Source: Defluviitaleaceae bacterium (GTDB taxonomy: Bacteria > Bacillota > Clostridia > Lachnospirales > WQUN01). Taken from it: a stretch of DNA of 64,000 nt. Shown here one piece after another: positions 1 through 40,515 of the stretch. Within the stretch, counting starts at the first letter, position 1. Every line of letters begins with the position of its first letter. A model generated the notes under the pieces. It had not been told where the DNA came from. It searched no databases and saw nothing but the letters and a program-made list of their open reading frames with translations. The stretch covers positions 1 through 64,000 of the forward strand of contig WQVF01000003.1 of NCBI GenBank assembly GCA_009781725.1. Direction: 5' to 3'. Position numbers and translations under genes: made by a program.

Positions 1-127
1 CCTCGTCGTTGCGAGGAGCGAAGCGACGAAGCAATCCAGCAAATCAAACCTTCTGGATTGCTTCGCTTTGCTCGCAATGACAGGCTTTGCATAGATATTC
101 ATGGTTTTTGCTTAGCAAGACGGCCCC
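1..127. repeat. Family A dispersed repeat, cut by the window edge
   Basis: The stretch holds a strong inverted repeat around the core GCAATCCAGC / GCTTCGCTTTGCTCGC and ends in GCTTAGCAAGACGGCCCC. Nearly the same sequence recurs at 4869-5038 (reversed) and 31869-32038. In those copies the left end reads GGGGCTGTCTCATTAAGC, so the full element is about 170 bp with terminal inverted repeats. Only the right three quarters are visible here. It has no coding capacity. Confidence 0.8.
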
Positions 128-132
128 TTTAT

Positions 133-290
133 AAAAACCGGTTTTGTTGATGGCTTTACAATAAACGGCAGGCAATCAGAGTTATTTTCGTATTATAGCG
201 ATTTCAATCCCGCATTTTGGATTGAAATTACTATATCCGCCCATTATGGGCATAATCGTCACCAATCAAGCATGAAATAATCACCACGAA
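133..290. repeat. Family F repeat carrying a short nested palindrome
   Basis: This region shares AAAACCGGTTTTG, GAGTTATTTTCGTATTA and then GCCCATTAYGGGC with CGTCACCA and AGCATGAAA with 8443-8575; parts recur at 8338-8390, 11801-11880 and, reversed, 47209-47262. At 194-235 a 42-bp palindrome with TATAG ends interrupts the motif compared with the 8443 copy. Positions 291-313 hold nothing else I recognise. Confidence 0.65.
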
Positions 291-313
291 AATCACGAAA
301 GGCAAAAAAATAT

Positions 314-1210
314 TTAGCGATTTTTAAATGGAATCCACATCTCCATATATGCATGTTTCTGGGATGAATAATATATCTCCGGGAAAAACCCATCTGCTAT
401 CAAGCCATGTTTCTTAAGCCAAAACCTCGTAAACTTCATCATTTTACCCATGGACGCCAAAAGTTCATTAAAGTCCTCAGCTTCGTATTCACAAACTATA
501 TACTCCCGCGGGGGAAGCTCCCAACTGGCGAAATCCGTATCTTTGGGAATTACATCAACTTCCGCCCCGGCAAAGTAGGTGGAATAGCCTTCCGGCGCAC
601 CGCCGTGATAAGACACCCCAACCCTCCGCCCACATGGGATACTCGGGATATCCTTGCGCAATTCATAAAACCTATCCCATATAGCGGTGGGGCCGGAGAC
701 CCCGGGCCTTTCCCCAAGCATCTTCCCCGACTCAAAACGCCAAAAATCCTTTACCCCAAGAAAATAGACCGCTTCATCAAGAATCTTACGGTTATACTCC
801 AAAACAATCCCTTCGCTAATCAAAGGAACACCCTCGTCCACCATTACATAGTTAAGGAGCAAGTTAGGCTTATCGAAGTTATTCAGCCCGACAGGGCTTT
901 GGCGATATTCTGATGGGTTAAGCCCATAGACCTCTTTAAATGCCCGAGAAAATGTCTCCCGGCTACCAAAGCCATACTTGGTTGCGATATCCGTGATATG
1001 TCCCCCGGCTTCAAGGCTCTCGCAAGCATAGGCAAGCCGTCGTAGCTTAATATACTCACGCACAGGCCTTTTGACCAGACGGGCAAATAGCCGCTGATAA
1101 TAAAATAGAGAGAGGGCGGCGATTTTGGCCAATTCCTCTATATGTATTTCCTCTGAGATATTTTTTTCAATATGCTCCAATGTTTTCTGAATGGATTCCC
1201 ATGCATGCAT
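314..1210 (-). CDS. AraC-family regulator with GyrI-like effector domain
   Basis: A 298-residue protein. Residues 1-105 form the paired helix-turn-helix of the AraC/XylS family (the segment containing YGFGSRETFSRAFKEVYG is the classic second HTH). Residues about 120-298 resemble the GyrI/AraC effector-binding fold, which binds small hydrophobic ligands in BmrR and Rob-like proteins. The start has a good upstream GGGAGGG. The gene is the last of a long minus-strand run and may control the adjacent radical SAM gene or an unlinked target; the ligand is unknown. The family call is firm and the regulon is a guess. Confidence 0.9.
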   Translation of the reverse strand: MHAWESIQKTLEHIEKNISEEIHIEELAKIAALSLFYYQRLFARLVKRPVREYIKLRRLAYACESLEAGGHITDIATKYGFGSRETFSRAFKEVYGLNPSEYRQSPVGLNNFDKPNLLLNYVMVDEGVPLISEGIVLEYNRKILDEAVYFLGVKDFWRFESGKMLGERPGVSGPTAIWDRFYELRKDIPSIPCGRRVGVSYHGGAPEGYSTYFAGAEVDVIPKDTDFASWELPPREYIVCEYEAEDFNELLASMGKMMKFTRFWLKKHGLIADGFFPEIYYSSQKHAYMEMWIPFKNR

Positions 1211-1288
1211 TGACTAGCCCTCCCTTGAAATGAATATAGCATAATCAGGAGTTGTGTGTGTGACGGCCTCTGCTCTTTTTGCATAAAA

Positions 1289-2398
1289 TTAATCAATATC
1301 CTCCAAAAGAGACATAAAGGGATATAAATCATTGTAATGTTTCTGCGTAAACATGGCATTTTGCTCTTTAAAAAGGGTTTGTGCCACATAATCAGCGATT
1401 GGCGTAATCAATCGTTCGTGGACACATTGTACTGGTGTTACGTCATTTATAATGTCTAAGCCGCTGCTAGCTAAATTGTCATAGGCATAATTACAACGGG
1501 ACTTGATGGCACAACTTCGGCAAGGTTCAGTCGGTATCGCACCCTTTTTATATATCGCCTTATGCTTCTTTTTGTTGATACCCGAAACAACATCGCCTAT
1601 TGCAAAAACAGGATTATTCAAGTGCTTTGACATCGCATAAATTATGCCGTCTGGGGCGACAGAGGGTTGATTCATGTTCATTCGTGACCTATCTATATTG
1701 TATTTTTCCCCCTTCAAATGGGACAAAATTTTCATGTCAAAGGAGGAAAAATAAAATTTATCTTCCCTTCTGGTCCAATTAATGTACATTTCCGCGATTT
1801 TTTTGTATTCCATCTCTAAAGCTAAAAGCCGTTCTTCTGTCCATGGTGCGGTTTTAGAATAGTTAACCCCCATGTGGATATATCTGAATCCCTTTTTAAA
1901 TAGATATTCAACAATTTCTGATGCCCTATCAACAGTTGCCGAGTCTACAACACTCAGGCCCATTGCAAAGGGATGATGCGCAAGCAGCAGGGAAATTTTT
2001 TCTTCAAGGACAGCAAGCGACCCGGTTCCGTCAATGGAGCTGCGGCAATAATCCTGTGCAGGCCCGTCACAGGATAATCCGATAGCCATATTGACATCAT
2101 TTGCGAACTTTAAAAACTCCTCATCCAAAAGCACACCATTTGTTGTGATTTTGTAGTAAAAGTTATGCCCCGTCTTTGTACTGATACTCTTTGCATAATC
2201 AACCACATCATATATAAGCTCCTTTTCCAGCAGGGGTTCACCGCCATAAAAAAGCAGCCCAGATGTGTTTGTATTCTCCATGCCAAGCTTTACCGCCGCA
2301 AAAGCAATCTCCCGGGACATACGCTCCGGTCCGCGTTTTACAAAGCAGTATTTGCAGTTTAGATTACATTGATTGGTAACATGGAGGGTAAGCTGCAA
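1289..2398 (-). CDS. Radical SAM/SPASM-domain enzyme, likely peptide or protein maturase
   Basis: A 369-residue protein that begins almost directly with the radical SAM CX3CX2C motif (C11, C15, C18), followed by GGEP at 52-55. The C-terminal cysteines C293, C296, C302 and C325 fit a SPASM domain holding auxiliary iron-sulfur clusters, as in anaerobic sulfatase maturases and RiPP-modifying enzymes. The start is TTG, with AGGAGCTGAT just upstream; that site overlaps the stop of the stalk-domain gene before it, so the two are translationally coupled. No sulfatase or short precursor peptide is next to it, so the neighbour is the obvious candidate substrate. This is an inference from position. Confidence 0.88.
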   Translation of the reverse strand: MQLTLHVTNQCNLNCKYCFVKRGPERMSREIAFAAVKLGMENTNTSGLLFYGGEPLLEKELIYDVVDYAKSISTKTGHNFYYKITTNGVLLDEEFLKFANDVNMAIGLSCDGPAQDYCRSSIDGTGSLAVLEEKISLLLAHHPFAMGLSVVDSATVDRASEIVEYLFKKGFRYIHMGVNYSKTAPWTEERLLALEMEYKKIAEMYINWTRREDKFYFSSFDMKILSHLKGEKYNIDRSRMNMNQPSVAPDGIIYAMSKHLNNPVFAIGDVVSGINKKKHKAIYKKGAIPTEPCRSCAIKSRCNYAYDNLASSGLDIINDVTPVQCVHERLITPIADYVAQTLFKEQNAMFTQKHYNDLYPFMSLLEDID

Positions 2399-2410
2399 TT
2401 TTATCAGCTC

Positions 2411-3580
2411 CTAGTATGTGATGTTGAGTATTCGGTCATCCTCATTCCATTCGATAGTCGCCCCGACGAAGTCTGCGACAAATTGGAGGGGAGCCAATAC
2501 TATATCATTGTGCACAAGCATAGGTATGTCCTCTGGCCAGTCACTGAAGCGATTGCGATTGACATTGGGGTTGACGGCAATGCTGCCATTAGAGGTAACC
2601 CAGATCTCTACATTATTTCTTGTTGCTGTAATTGCAATTCTGAGACCATTATCACTTACAACAGTGTCCATTCCCAATGCTTCAAACAACTCAAGTGCTG
2701 GGACCATCTTTTGATCGTTTATAATTAGGGGATATTCGCCATGGTTAAAAAGTACGCCGTTTATAATGACATCAACATCAGGAAAATGTTCCAGTATGCC
2801 CTCTGATTGCAGGATTGCAATAAATTTATCTGCTTGGTTGATAAGTTGCCTTACGAGAATCGGGCGAGCTGCTGCGGTCTCCCACGGAAATGGCCGTCTT
2901 AGCAGTCTTGGCAGAGGTGCGCCTCTACCGGCTATTCGCCCTGGATTGTGAAACGCGCCAACAATAATCTCTTCATCCAGCTCTGCAAAAATTTCCTCAA
3001 TCAGCCTGGCAATATGTCGTTCATCCAATAGAAATGACCGGTGGGTTGACCTTACATATGTAACCGCAATGCCATTTTGTGCGTCGAACAAATCAAAATC
3101 AATGCCATCAGGGCGACCCATGAATAATAATTCACTAAAGCTTAAATTATATTCCTTCAGCGTTGGGTCGGAAACAATCCTCGGCGGTGGCGTTGCATCA
3201 AAATTAAGCCCCGCCGCTTCCAGTCGTGCTCGAATAATACCAAAAGCTTCTTGCTCTGTCAGATGTACCATGTAGAATGAGCTGCCCATGCCCCCTGTAT
3301 GAAGCCTGACAAGCAAGTTTTCCTGACTAAACCCTCTATAACTGCCTTGGGTGTGTCCGAGATTATGCACTATTTCCTGGGGGAAGGTATGATTTCCGCT
3401 TCTCACAACACTGGAGAGCGCTAGTGCTCCAATAAACCCCAAACCAGCTATAACTTTTGCGTTTTTCTTCCATCTTTTCGGTATTTTTTTTAGCATTGCC
3501 GAGTTATCATCCTCAAAGGTGGGAATCTCCGGCGTATTGTAGACTTTAATCGGACATACGCTTAATTCTAATTTTCTCAT
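2411..3580 (-). CDS. Membrane-anchored stalk-domain (copper amine oxidase N-like) protein
   Basis: A 389-residue protein. It has an unusual polar N-terminus with a single cysteine (C9) and the motif VYNTPEIPTFEDDN, then a basic stretch and one hydrophobic segment (about 41-59) that could anchor it in the membrane. The middle is unrecognised. Residues about 270-389 match the copper amine oxidase N-terminal-like stalk domain common in clostridial surface proteins (INGVLF, VPALELFEALG, APLQFVADFVGATIEW). The start is the ATG after GGAGGGCTTT; a GTG four codons earlier is less likely. It lies 32 bp after the phosphofructokinase gene and 12 bp before the radical SAM gene, which suggests a two-gene unit in which this protein is modified. 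Confidence 0.8.
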   Translation of the reverse strand: MRKLELSVCPIKVYNTPEIPTFEDDNSAMLKKIPKRWKKNAKVIAGLGFIGALALSSVVRSGNHTFPQEIVHNLGHTQGSYRGFSQENLLVRLHTGGMGSSFYMVHLTEQEAFGIIRARLEAAGLNFDATPPPRIVSDPTLKEYNLSFSELLFMGRPDGIDFDLFDAQNGIAVTYVRSTHRSFLLDERHIARLIEEIFAELDEEIIVGAFHNPGRIAGRGAPLPRLLRRPFPWETAAARPILVRQLINQADKFIAILQSEGILEHFPDVDVIINGVLFNHGEYPLIINDQKMVPALELFEALGMDTVVSDNGLRIAITATRNNVEIWVTSNGSIAVNPNVNRNRFSDWPEDIPMLVHNDIVLAPLQFVADFVGATIEWNEDDRILNITY

Positions 3581-3612
3581 AAAGCCCTCCACTCTCAGTG
3601 CCTACGCAAATC

Positions 3613-4830
3613 CTAGCTTAATTCTATATAAACAGGCATACCATGTCGTGACTGCACACCAAAATCCCCCTCTACCAAGGGAGCCAGATACATAATCATT
3701 TCCTCTGTCACAAAATTACCTCGTTCATTAATCCATTCTCGGGGGATTAGCTTTTCACGATTGGCTATTGCACTGACAGGTACAGTGCCGTAGTTTACAC
3801 GATACGGGGAATCAGAAATTCTATTAATAACAGAAACCTCTCCCGATATCCCCTTAAGTGCCCGGTCAAGGGCCGCCACACCCAGGAGCTTTGCTTCGGT
3901 CAAGTCATTAGCAGATACAAGATGCCCTGCACATCGCTGCATAAGGGAAAGATCAATGGCACGTACCTTGCAGCCTATCTCTTTGCGCACAAGGCTTTCC
4001 AGGGTCCTTGCCGCGCCAGAGAGATATTTATGCCCAAAGGCGTCAATTACACCGCTTTGCTCTGACTCACCCACAAAGGAACCGTCGGAGTATTTGACTC
4101 CTTCGCTTACTGCTATCAAAACAGCAGAAGACTGACGGAGCTTTTCCTGTACATCTTCAATAAAACGCCCATTATCAAATGCCACCTCAGGCAGATATAT
4201 CAGATGTGGTGCTCCGCTCTGCAAACTAGCAAGAGCACTTGAGGCAGTGAGCCAGCCGGTATGCCTGCCCATTACCTCCACTATGGTAACGGCGGGGATA
4301 TCGTATACCTTGATATCGCACCACAATTCCGAAAAAGTGGTGGAAATATATTTTGCCGCCGAGCCAAAACCGGGAGAGTGGTCCATACCGCATAAATCAT
4401 TGTCGATTGTTTTGGGCGCACCCATTATTGATATATTACTTCCGATTTCCCTTGCATAATCGGTAAGTTTAAGAACCGTGTCCATTGAGTCATTACCGCC
4501 GATATAAATAAACCATCCAATATTATGCTTTTGAAATGTATCAAAAATAGCTTTATAGCTATAGGGGTCATTTTTGGGACTGTCGAGCTTATGCCTGCAA
4601 GAACCTAGGGCCGAGGATGGTGTGTATATAAGCCGTTTTATCATATTAGGGTCGGAAAGAGTCTCGCTTACATTGATAATATTGTCGTCGATGACGCCCT
4701 TTATCCCATGCAAAGCACCCAATACAGCACCCACATCGGAGCTTGTGATAGCCCGTTCAAAAATACCTGCAAGGGTCGCGTTTATGGCAACGCTAGGTCC
4801 GCCGGATTGTGCTACGAGTACGTTTTTCAT
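3613..4830 (-). CDS. pfp: PPi-type 6-phosphofructokinase
   Basis: A 405-residue PfkA-superfamily enzyme that phosphorylates fructose 6-phosphate. It has GGNDS at 111-115 in the nucleotide/PPi site, PKTIDND at 139-145 and MGRHTGW at 187-193. The lysine in PKTIDND is typical of pyrophosphate-using enzymes (ATP enzymes have GTIDND); the usual GGDDS aspartate is Asn here, so donor preference is not certain. The start is the ATG at 4830, preceded by AAAAGGAGGATTTTC. A longer frame to 5004 only translates a repeat element and should not be annotated. Lying downstream of the sugar dehydrogenase genes, it fits a pathway ending in fructose 6-phosphate. Confidence 0.9.
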   Translation of the reverse strand: MKNVLVAQSGGPSVAINATLAGIFERAITSSDVGAVLGALHGIKGVIDDNIINVSETLSDPNMIKRLIYTPSSALGSCRHKLDSPKNDPYSYKAIFDTFQKHNIGWFIYIGGNDSMDTVLKLTDYAREIGSNISIMGAPKTIDNDLCGMDHSPGFGSAAKYISTTFSELWCDIKVYDIPAVTIVEVMGRHTGWLTASSALASLQSGAPHLIYLPEVAFDNGRFIEDVQEKLRQSSAVLIAVSEGVKYSDGSFVGESEQSGVIDAFGHKYLSGAARTLESLVRKEIGCKVRAIDLSLMQRCAGHLVSANDLTEAKLLGVAALDRALKGISGEVSVINRISDSPYRVNYGTVPVSAIANREKLIPREWINERGNFVTEEMIMYLAPLVEGDFGVQSRHGMPVYIELS

Positions 4831-4868
4831 GAAAATCCTCCTTTTACTTAGCCCCCTTCGGCGTCTTT

Positions 4869-5038
4869 GGGGCCGTCTTGCTAAGCAAAAACCATGAATA
4901 TCAATGCAAAGCCTGTCATTGCGAGCAAAGCGAAGCAATCCAGAAGGTTTGAATTGCTGGATTGCTTCGTCGCTTCGCTCCTCGCAACGACGAGGCAAGT
5001 GCATAATTATTTATAAAAATGCTTAATGAGACAGCCCC
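4869..5038. repeat. Family A dispersed repeat, reverse copy
   Basis: A full copy of about 170 bp bounded by GGGGCCGTCTTGCTAAGC and GCTTAATGAGACAGCCCC, which are imperfect terminal inverted repeats. The interior is the palindrome found at 1-127 and 31869-32038. It separates lipA from the phosphofructokinase gene and creates a false N-terminal extension of the latter. Confidence 0.85.
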
Positions 5039-5040
5039 TT

Positions 5041-5880
5041 TTATAAACCAAAGGCTTCACCTGCGCGATAAGAACTCCTCACTAGCGGCCCGGAGGCTAC
5101 AAATTTAAAGCCTTTTTCCCTTGCTGCCATTTCCAGCTCTTTAAATTTACGCGGCTCGATATATGCCTTAACAGGTACATGCCCCTTCGAAGGCGCAAGA
5201 TATTGACCTATCGTTAAAAAATCGCAGTCTACTTCTCGCAAATCATCTAGCAGTTCATGGATTTCCTCATCCATCTCTCCTAAACCAAGCATTATCCCGC
5301 TTTTTGATGCTATATTTGAGTTAATATTTTTTAACAAGTTCAAAGACCGCCTGTACTCGGCCTGGGGGCGAACCTCTGGGTAGAGTGATTTCACCGTCTC
5401 CATATTGTGACTGATGACATCAGGCTCTGCATCAACAACGGTCTTAAGGGCATCAATGCATCCCAGAAAATCCGGTACAAGCACCTCTATTTTAGTCCCC
5501 GGGACAGCCTGCCTGATTTCCGCAATAATCTTTGCAAAATGCCCGGCCCCGCCGTCAGGTAAATCATCCCGTGTCACAGATGTGACTACTACATATTTTA
5601 ATCCAAGCTCTTTGACTGCCTGAGCGATATTCTTAGGCTCGTCGGGGTTGAGCTGCTGAGGTAAGCCGTATTGCACATTGCAAAAACCACAGTTCCGTGT
5701 GCAAACTGTCCCCATAATCATAAAGGTAGCGGTTCTGTTAGAAAAGCATTCCATATAATTAGGGCAATTGGCTTCATTGCATACGGTGTTTAGATTTAAA
5801 CTGCGAAGGATTTCCTCAACTCCCGCCCGCTGAGGATTTTCGGAATGTCGGATACGCAGCCAATCCGGTTTACGAGACAT
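5041..5880 (-). CDS. lipA: Lipoyl synthase
   Basis: A 279-residue radical SAM enzyme that inserts two sulfurs into protein-bound octanoyl groups to make lipoyl groups. The auxiliary-cluster cysteines are C34, C39 and C45 ([12 protein letters not shown]), the radical SAM cysteines are C60, C64 and C67 (CTRNCGFC), and the C-terminal RSSYRAGE motif carries the cluster-ligating serine. The start is the ATG at 5880, which overlaps the end of lplA by 11 bp; an upstream in-frame start gives 11 more residues and is less family-like. With lplA it would supply lipoyl groups to the E2 protein at 15810-17078. Confidence 0.96.
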
Positions 5881-6871
5881 CTCTATCACCAAATATACAG
5901 GACAAGAACTCATCCTTGCCTATGTTTCCAAGATAGGGCTGAATCAAGATCTCTTCCAGAGCCCTCACAAAGGCCTGATACCGAAACTCCGTGCCTGTTA
6001 GTACTTCCTCTAAGCCATGAATCGGTATGATGCCAAGAAAATCCCCTCGTATACAGCAAGAGATTACGTCCCCTTTGGCAATATCAAGAAATATCTCCAC
6101 CTTACCGCCAGCAAAGCGTTTGCTGTTATGAAATGTAAACATCGGTGCCCGTCCAAAAGTCCAGGATGGGTTTCCATACCTCTCATGATAGATTTGATGA
6201 ATCATTGCCAGAGCATTGTCTGTTAGAGTATGTCGGATTATCTTCTCGTTACAAAATAGTCGTTGTTTTAAAAGTTTCAAAAATTCCTGTATGGAGTAGT
6301 CTGGGTTTAAATATTTCTTGATATTGGTAACCCGGCTGCGCACTGACCGCAATGCTTTGGAACGAATCTTAGCATCATCTACAGTGAGCACCCGGGCAAG
6401 CTTATCCAAATCCGTATCATATAATAGAGAGCCATGGGTGCATATTCTGCCGTGCCGTGTATACTGAGCCATTCCGGAGAACTTGGCCCCGTCCGCAAGG
6501 ATATCGTTGCGTCCGTCAATCTCTGCGGGGATGCCCATTTCCCTCAACGCCTTAATTATCATATCGGCGACATTTTTTCTGACCTCATCTGGGGGATCTT
6601 TATGGGGCAGTATCACGGTATACAACAGATTGCCCATGTCGGTAAAGATAGTCCCCCCTCCGCTTGACCGGCGGACTATGTGAATCCTTTCATTCTCGGC
6701 GTAGCCTATGTCAATTTCCGCTTCAGCTATCTGATTGCATCCAAGCATCGCGCAATTATCAGCCTGCCATATCATCATGACAGTCTCATCAGAAGGAAAA
6801 TGCTCCATTACATATTCTTCAACAGAAAAATGGAAAGCAGCGTCCGTGCTTTCCATTTCGATATAAATCAT
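5870..6871 (-). CDS. lplA: Lipoate-protein ligase A
   Basis: A 333-residue biotin/lipoate ligase family protein that activates lipoate (or octanoate) with ATP and transfers it to lipoyl-domain lysines. The catalytic segment [16 protein letters not shown] and the later [17 protein letters not shown] are clear, and a C-terminal accessory domain is present. The start at MIYIEMES (ATG 6871) has GGAG upstream; the longer frame to 6991 comes from repeat sequence. It overlaps lipA and lies just downstream of the dehydrogenase-complex genes, consistent with a local lipoylation module. Confidence 0.94.
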
Positions 6872-31868: not shown

Positions 31869-32038
31869 GGGGTTGTCTCATTAAGCATTTTTATGAATAA
31901 TTATGCACTTGCCTCGTCGTTGCGAGGAGCGAAGCGACGAAGCAATCCAGCAAATCAAACCTTCTAGATTGCTTCGCTTTGCTCGCAATGACAGGCTTTG
32001 CATAGATATTCATGGTTTTTGCTTAGCAAGGCAGCCCC
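31869..32038. repeat. Family A dispersed repeat, full copy
   Basis: A 170-bp copy bounded by GGGGTTGTCTCATTAAGC and GCTTAGCAAGGCAGCCCC. It is almost identical to 1-127 over their overlap and to the reverse of 4869-5038. The rest of 31677-32161 shows no gene. Confidence 0.85.
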
Positions 32039-40430: not shown

Positions 40431-40515
40431 TTGACGTCATTGCGAGGAGCGTAGCAACGAAGCAATCCACGTGTGTGCGGTTTCTGGATTGCTTCGCGCC
40501 GTTCGCAATGACAAC
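40431..40515. repeat. Family A core without its terminal repeats
   Basis: GTCATTGCGAGGAGCGTAG, GAAGCAATCCACG and GGATTGCTTCGCG with GCAATGAC form the same palindromic core as at 1-127, but the GGGGCYGTCT ends are missing. It lies between the exporter operon and an XRE regulator gene. Confidence 0.75.

Follow-up and report, generated by a model that had tools for sequence, protein, structure and literature searches.

A two-gene system on the minus strand of contig WQVF01000003.1 from a Defluviitaleaceae bacterium is probably a leader-dependent radical SAM modification system for surface proteins and lipoproteins. The stretch of DNA analysed, positions 1 to 64,000 of this contig, is called the window here. 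The system consists of a radical SAM maturase and a precursor protein that carries a leader in front of its signal helix and a Gly-rich core behind it. It is present in 13 sampled genomes of the termite-gut type and in several relatives across the phylum, and the genome of the window has a second copy on contig 19, where two precursor genes lie ahead of the maturase gene.

Gene Organization

The open reading frames of a radical SAM enzyme and of a stalk-domain protein are located where a preliminary description of this DNA had placed them, and the features of the two genes are as follows.

1289..2398, minus strand: radical SAM maturase gene, 369 aa, TTG start at 2398, stop at 1289–1291
1424..1522, minus strand: retained cysteines CX2CX5C...C (C293, C296, C302, C325), presumably the AuxII ligands
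2345..2368, minus strand: CX3CX2C radical SAM cluster motif (C11, C15, C18)
2408..2412, minus strand: AGGAG ribosome site of the maturase gene, overlapping the precursor stop codon TAG (2411–2413)
2411..3580, minus strand: precursor (stalk-protein) gene, 389 aa, with leader, signal helix, Gly-rich core, domain and stalk domain
2426..2764, minus strand: optional stalk module (Cu_amine_oxidN1), from Pfam
2801..3247, minus strand: domain following the core, residues 112–260, from alignment, model and fold search
3248..3307, minus strand: Gly-rich core RLHTGGMGSSFYMVHLTEQE, residues 92–111; H94, G96, G97, Y103, T108 and E109 invariant
3404..3460, minus strand: hydrophobic signal/anchor helix, residues 41–59; position 58 is Val in the window protein
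3449..3553, minus strand: leader PIKVYNTPEIPTFEDDNSAMLKKIPKRWKKNAKVI, residues 10–44; Y14, P17, P20, L30, P34, R36 and W37 invariant

The gene order on the minus strand is a PPi-type phosphofructokinase gene, the precursor gene, the maturase gene and a gene for an AraC-type regulator (314–1210). The regulator is not conserved at other loci and was rejected as a component of the system. The precursor gene starts with ATG at 3580 and has GGAGGG upstream. The overlap of the maturase ribosome site with the precursor stop codon, already pointed out in the preliminary description, was confirmed. In 20 of 22 loci, the distance between the end of a precursor reading frame or fragment and the maturase start is −10 to +31 bases; the exceptions to this tight coupling include locus L013, where the maturase gene comes first and is followed by the precursor gene.

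A dispersed repeat, TTGCTTCGTCGCTTCGCTCCTCGCAACGACG, is found at 4–34, 4962–4992, 31915–31945 and 40435–40465 of the window, and one copy sits at the contig end. The copies at 4–34 and 4962–4992 have opposite orientations and bracket the block from the phosphofructokinase gene to the AraC-type gene. Since these two copies are inverted, a search for direct repeats in 1–6000 was empty.

Distribution and Co-Occurrence of Maturase and Precursor

Relatives were sought at the family, order, class and phylum levels, together with a contig scan of genomes. Together they identified a close group of maturases, with 49–74% identity in the contig scan, surrounded by a wider circle. Nearly all close members come from metagenome bins, and those in the named collection are nearly all bins such as Emb289, Lab288 and Nt197; Emb289 and Lab288 are part of a study of 589 genomes from the guts of higher termites (PMC7024585). 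The system is also present in two termite-gut bins labelled Treponema (L025 and L035), suggesting either transfer between phyla or a binning error. The radical SAM proteins found on viral contigs and plasmids are all distant ones.

One to three precursor genes lie directly upstream of nearly every close maturase gene. A precursor profile matches 13 of the 392 genomes of the order, and all 13 are among the 16 genomes with a maturase; the probability of this overlap under random placement is about 8e-22, a value that is indicative since the genomes are related. A profile of the leader alone finds 26 leaders in 13 genomes that have a maturase, as against none in five relatives lacking one. Within the 392 genomes of the order, no homologue of the stalk protein was found without the radical SAM gene, and the loci of the relatives show no conserved gene for a short Cys-rich precursor next to the pair. 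Both results agree with the pairing put forward in the preliminary description. No conserved third gene was found around the pair, and neither a dedicated protease nor a dedicated transporter, which fits a general export route.

Leaders are also encoded away from a maturase gene, on contig 8 of genome G561 and contigs 21 and 37 of genome G019, with a broken copy in genome G020, and some of these unlinked proteins keep both leader and core. Conversely, the maturase of locus L023 has no adjoining precursor, and the known precursors of L026/G019 are located on other contigs than the maturase. The precursor on contig 37 of G019 (L106:685-1854) has a leader and a core and ends in a type I dockerin (Pfam 3.7e-14), suggesting that it is attached to a cellulosome-like complex.

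More distant maturases, grouped as types B to E, also adjoin leader-bearing lipoproteins. Leader and anchoring are shared with type A, and the core motifs vary among types A to E, so that Gly is their sole common feature and the cores of types B to E align to that of type A through glycines only. The type B precursors (L070, L073, L075, L076, L112 and L113) have the strongly conserved motif APIFxHGDGRGSFGCxSVAPPxFLSEEEA, in which Cys is invariant, and the maturases beside them have a complete SPASM domain. Type D (L066, L067, L071, L072 and L077–L079) consists of families of lipoproteins of 70–150 aa, several per genome, encoded beside the maturase; their leaders read YKKPxYA and their repeats VxLxG[DEG]VxV.

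These observations bear on the possibility that co-transcription as neighbours is all that links the two genes and that the maturase has another target. The relation of maturase to substrate is drawn from sequence comparison, which leaves some room for this reading, but co-occurrence is perfect even with unlinked precursors included, and the pairing recurs in distant lineages with a different gene order, so that mere neighbourhood is highly improbable. Since the leader has invariant residues, the two genes co-occur, unlinked precursors keep leader and core, and distant lineages show the same pairing, the neighbouring stalk protein is probably the substrate of the maturase, as the preliminary description had proposed.

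Leader and Gly-Rich Core of the Precursor

In an alignment of 31 precursors from many genera, the seven leader residues and the six core residues listed above are invariant. The leader (residues 10–44) has a mean relative entropy of 2.77 bits and the core (residues 87–111) one of 2.84 bits, as compared with 1.33 bits for the linker and 1.83 bits for the rest of the domain. Thus the N-terminal segment is better conserved than the middle of the protein, supporting the earlier suggestion that this N-terminus is leader-like. Since a signal peptide has no need of an n-region as long as about 40 residues, this segment may well act as a leader. C9, the sole Cys of the window precursor and a residue stressed in the preliminary description, is not conserved in the alignment, the commonest residue there being Ser (29%), and was rejected as a modification site.

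The membrane helix of that description is present as a hydrophobic helix, and in most relatives it is part of a signal and lipobox region: 25 of the 31 aligned relatives have a lipobox Cys at position 58 (for example LSGC, LTGC or LAGC). The stalk domain gives a clear Pfam match in the window protein (PF07833, 5.4e-12; 46.1 bits against a gathering score of 24.2), and is the sole match of the precursor domains in Pfam and NCBIfam. It is, however, optional, being missing from most relatives and once replaced by a dockerin, and mobile, since it lies ahead of the core in L008 and behind the core in the window protein. Among termite-type precursors without an extra module, the lipobox is present in 25 and missing in 2, whereas of the precursors bearing a stalk or dockerin module 4 have it and 6 do not (Fisher test, 0.002; the set includes two near-duplicate loci). 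The window precursor belongs to the module-bearing group without a lipobox. A Foldseek search of the precursor domain against the PDB gave no match below E 0.001. Stops or frameshifts interrupt the precursor genes at L014:2595-3446, L032:6376-7180 and L104:825-1755, which are perhaps pseudogenes or assembly errors.

The core motif, HxGGxG...YVxxxTE, is located behind the signal helix in one to three copies. About 11 stand-alone cores of about 17 residues lie between the lipobox and a complete domain, keeping H, GG, Y and TE and lacking the fold that follows; copies in L024 and L036 are counted among them, and one copy in L030 counts as a complete one. Two complete paralogues without a leader (L102 and L064) have lost the core and kept the rest of the domain. 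The short distant precursors of type D have no folded domain; besides a short leader and a lipobox, they contain one to six VxLxG[DEG]VxV repeats. Because of these stand-alone copies, the loss of the core in leaderless paralogues and the type D repeats, the core is the candidate target, and the modification site would lie within it. As a target, the comparison points to the Gly-rich core behind the helix rather than to the N-terminal segment.

The maturase could also modify the leader or signal region itself, for instance an invariant Tyr or Trp, say to control export, the core being the conserved start of a fold. Leader and core are about equally conserved, and a low-confidence model of the precursor (pLDDT 75) predicts the core as a beta-hairpin plus helix, in which the GG motif could be structural, both of which are compatible with such a reading. 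It is nevertheless quite unlikely, since duplicated cores occur as stand-alone 17-mers lacking the fold, since paralogues that have lost the leader have lost the core as well, and since the type D leader is reduced to YKKPxYA although up to six Gly-rich repeats are present.

Maturase and Type of Modification

The maturase contains a Radical_SAM domain (Pfam 7.8e-15). Its radical SAM core starts at residue 2, without an N-terminal RRE domain, and C11, C15 and C18 of its cluster motif are invariant across 51 sequences. The best NCBIfam model is that of PapB (NF047865), and because the score of 153 bits is under the cut-off of 340 and no curated NCBIfam cut-off is passed, the maturase falls in no named NCBIfam family. 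A model of the maturase built by AF2 (pLDDT 92.9) matches CteB, anSME and ChlB, which are modifiers of peptides or proteins.

The seven-Cys SPASM motif is incomplete in the window maturase, three AuxI ligands being gone: S238, M256 and Y306 take the places of the equivalents of C261, C276 and C330 of anSME. The four retained Cys residues, which we take to be the AuxII ligands by the standard SPASM assignment together with the alignment, are invariant, and the three AuxI Cys residues are missing throughout the termite clade. The non-termite relatives keep the full set of seven. The termite enzymes form one group in the tree (support 74/92), so that a single loss of the AuxI ligands suffices. 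These observations suggest that the termite maturases have lost AuxI and retained AuxII. The AuxI ligands of anSME are C255, C261, C276 and C330, and those of CteB serve substrate binding (PMC6231123).

The preliminary description had considered a thioether or formylglycine type of modification. PapB, SCIFF and anSME are the best NCBIfam and fold matches, as would be expected for ordinary Cys-dependent chemistry of the ranthipeptide or sactipeptide kind or for formylglycine formation of the kind known from the maturation of anaerobic sulfatases. However, the window precursor has a single Cys, the unconserved C9 in the leader, type A cores have no conserved Cys, the window precursor has no [CS]x[PA]xR motif anywhere, including CxPxR, the PapB score is under the cut-off, and the AuxI ligands that bind substrate in CteB (PMC6231123) are missing. 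Such chemistry is therefore very unlikely.

A radical epimerase that places D-amino acids in the core would require no Cys in the substrate and, as a redox-neutral enzyme, could tolerate the AuxI loss, and the maturase model weakly resembles the epimerase EpeE (8ai4) in its fold. However, no invariant Cys was identified as H donor, since the Cys near the active-site loop (alignment column 134) is missing from some maturases, and Gly, the common residue of the cores, is incapable of epimerisation; epimerisation is thus a minor possibility, though the second most likely one. We rather favour a non-Cys cross-link or another side-chain or backbone change in the core.

Proposed Mechanism

From the pair, leader, core, lipobox and co-occurrence, as read from the sequences, we infer the substrate relation, the site of modification, the order of the steps and all enzymatic steps of the following process. 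In the cytoplasm, the maturase would recognise the leader YxxPxxP...LLKKxPxRWKKN and modify one or more hairpins of the core (HxGGxG...YVxxxTE) in the precursor or precursors encoded beside it, and the modified product would then pass through the housekeeping Sec pathway for export. A cut by signal peptidase II before the lipobox Cys would, in most relatives, remove the leader and leave the modified protein lipid-anchored. In the stalk and dockerin forms, including the window protein, the helix may stay as an anchor, or signal peptidase I may cut. The comparative evidence is consistent with the earlier view of the precursor as a surface-type protein. It also agrees with the view that this is not a standard short-peptide RiPP, except that the distant type D relatives are short (70–150 aa).

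On a broader scale, we tentatively suggest, at somewhat less than even likelihood, that leader-dependent radical-SAM-modified lipoproteins extend across Bacillota, with a RiPP leader fused before the signal peptide for removal by signal peptidase II, and that the termite branch has an AuxII-only SPASM enzyme which places a previously unseen modification on Gly-rich hairpins of folded surface proteins. If so, leader-dependent RiPP chemistry would be joined to general lipoprotein export, one cut both removing the leader and anchoring the product, and in termite-gut bacteria radical SAM modifications would occur on entire surface proteins, some of which carry a stalk or dockerin module. With a SPASM enzyme that has AuxII only, the debated roles of the two auxiliary clusters could also be put to a direct test.

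Comparison with Known Systems

A search of the non-subscription literature on the radical SAM pair, on termite radical SAM RiPPs and on SPASM enzymes without AuxI found no description of this system. To this extent it remains a candidate for an undescribed system, as first suggested, although its concept is near that of known RiPPs. RiPPs in general have a leader and a core within one ribosomal precursor, which a co-encoded enzyme recognises. A conserved leader, a repeated core and co-occurrence with the enzyme are observed here, and recognition is putative.

Among known maturases, the PapB ranthipeptide enzymes are similar to the window maturase in length and domain order; unlike their substrates, the core here has no Cys/Asp pairs, and the three AuxI ligands are missing. 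CteB and SCIFF maturases (5WGG/5WHY) are among the best fold matches (TM 0.76), but CteB makes thioethers and has both an RRE and the full SPASM domain, whereas the window maturase has no RRE and has lost AuxI ligands. The anaerobic sulfatase maturating enzyme (4K37; TM 0.78) also acts on a large protein, but no CxPxR-type target is present here and the equivalents of C261, C276 and C330 are gone. Twitch-domain enzymes keep AuxI and have lost AuxII, and the termite maturases show the reverse. In the poly-cyclopropylglycine system (PMC9062424), the radical SAM-SPASM enzyme TvgB likewise acts on Cys-free, Gly-rich repeats; unlike in the present system, these are TVGG repeats on a peptide, accompanied by dedicated dioxygenase and transporter genes and lacking a lipoprotein leader.

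The closest published concept is that of the DAG-RiPPs, which are RiPP-lipoprotein hybrids made by the MNIO enzymes DybH and NedB (PMC12636315). In DAG-RiPPs, a cytosolic RiPP-type enzyme accompanies a precursor with a lipobox signal, and the gene pairs described here resemble this arrangement, the lipobox Cys being present in 25 of 31 aligned relatives and missing from the window protein itself. In DAG-RiPPs, modification precedes maturation by Sec and signal peptidase II and some substrates are whole proteins, and the same is proposed here. The MNIO enzymes depend on a C-terminal motif instead of a leader, and the authors of that preprint expect lipidated RiPPs to arise by leader-independent pathways, as those compatible with lipoprotein signals (PMC12636315). 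The present system differs in having a radical SAM enzyme, a leader ahead of the signal helix and a Gly-rich core without Cys. If the proposed mechanism holds, the DAG-RiPP concept would be widened beyond leader-independent pathways, and the system described here looks like the leader-dependent radical-SAM counterpart of DAG-RiPPs.
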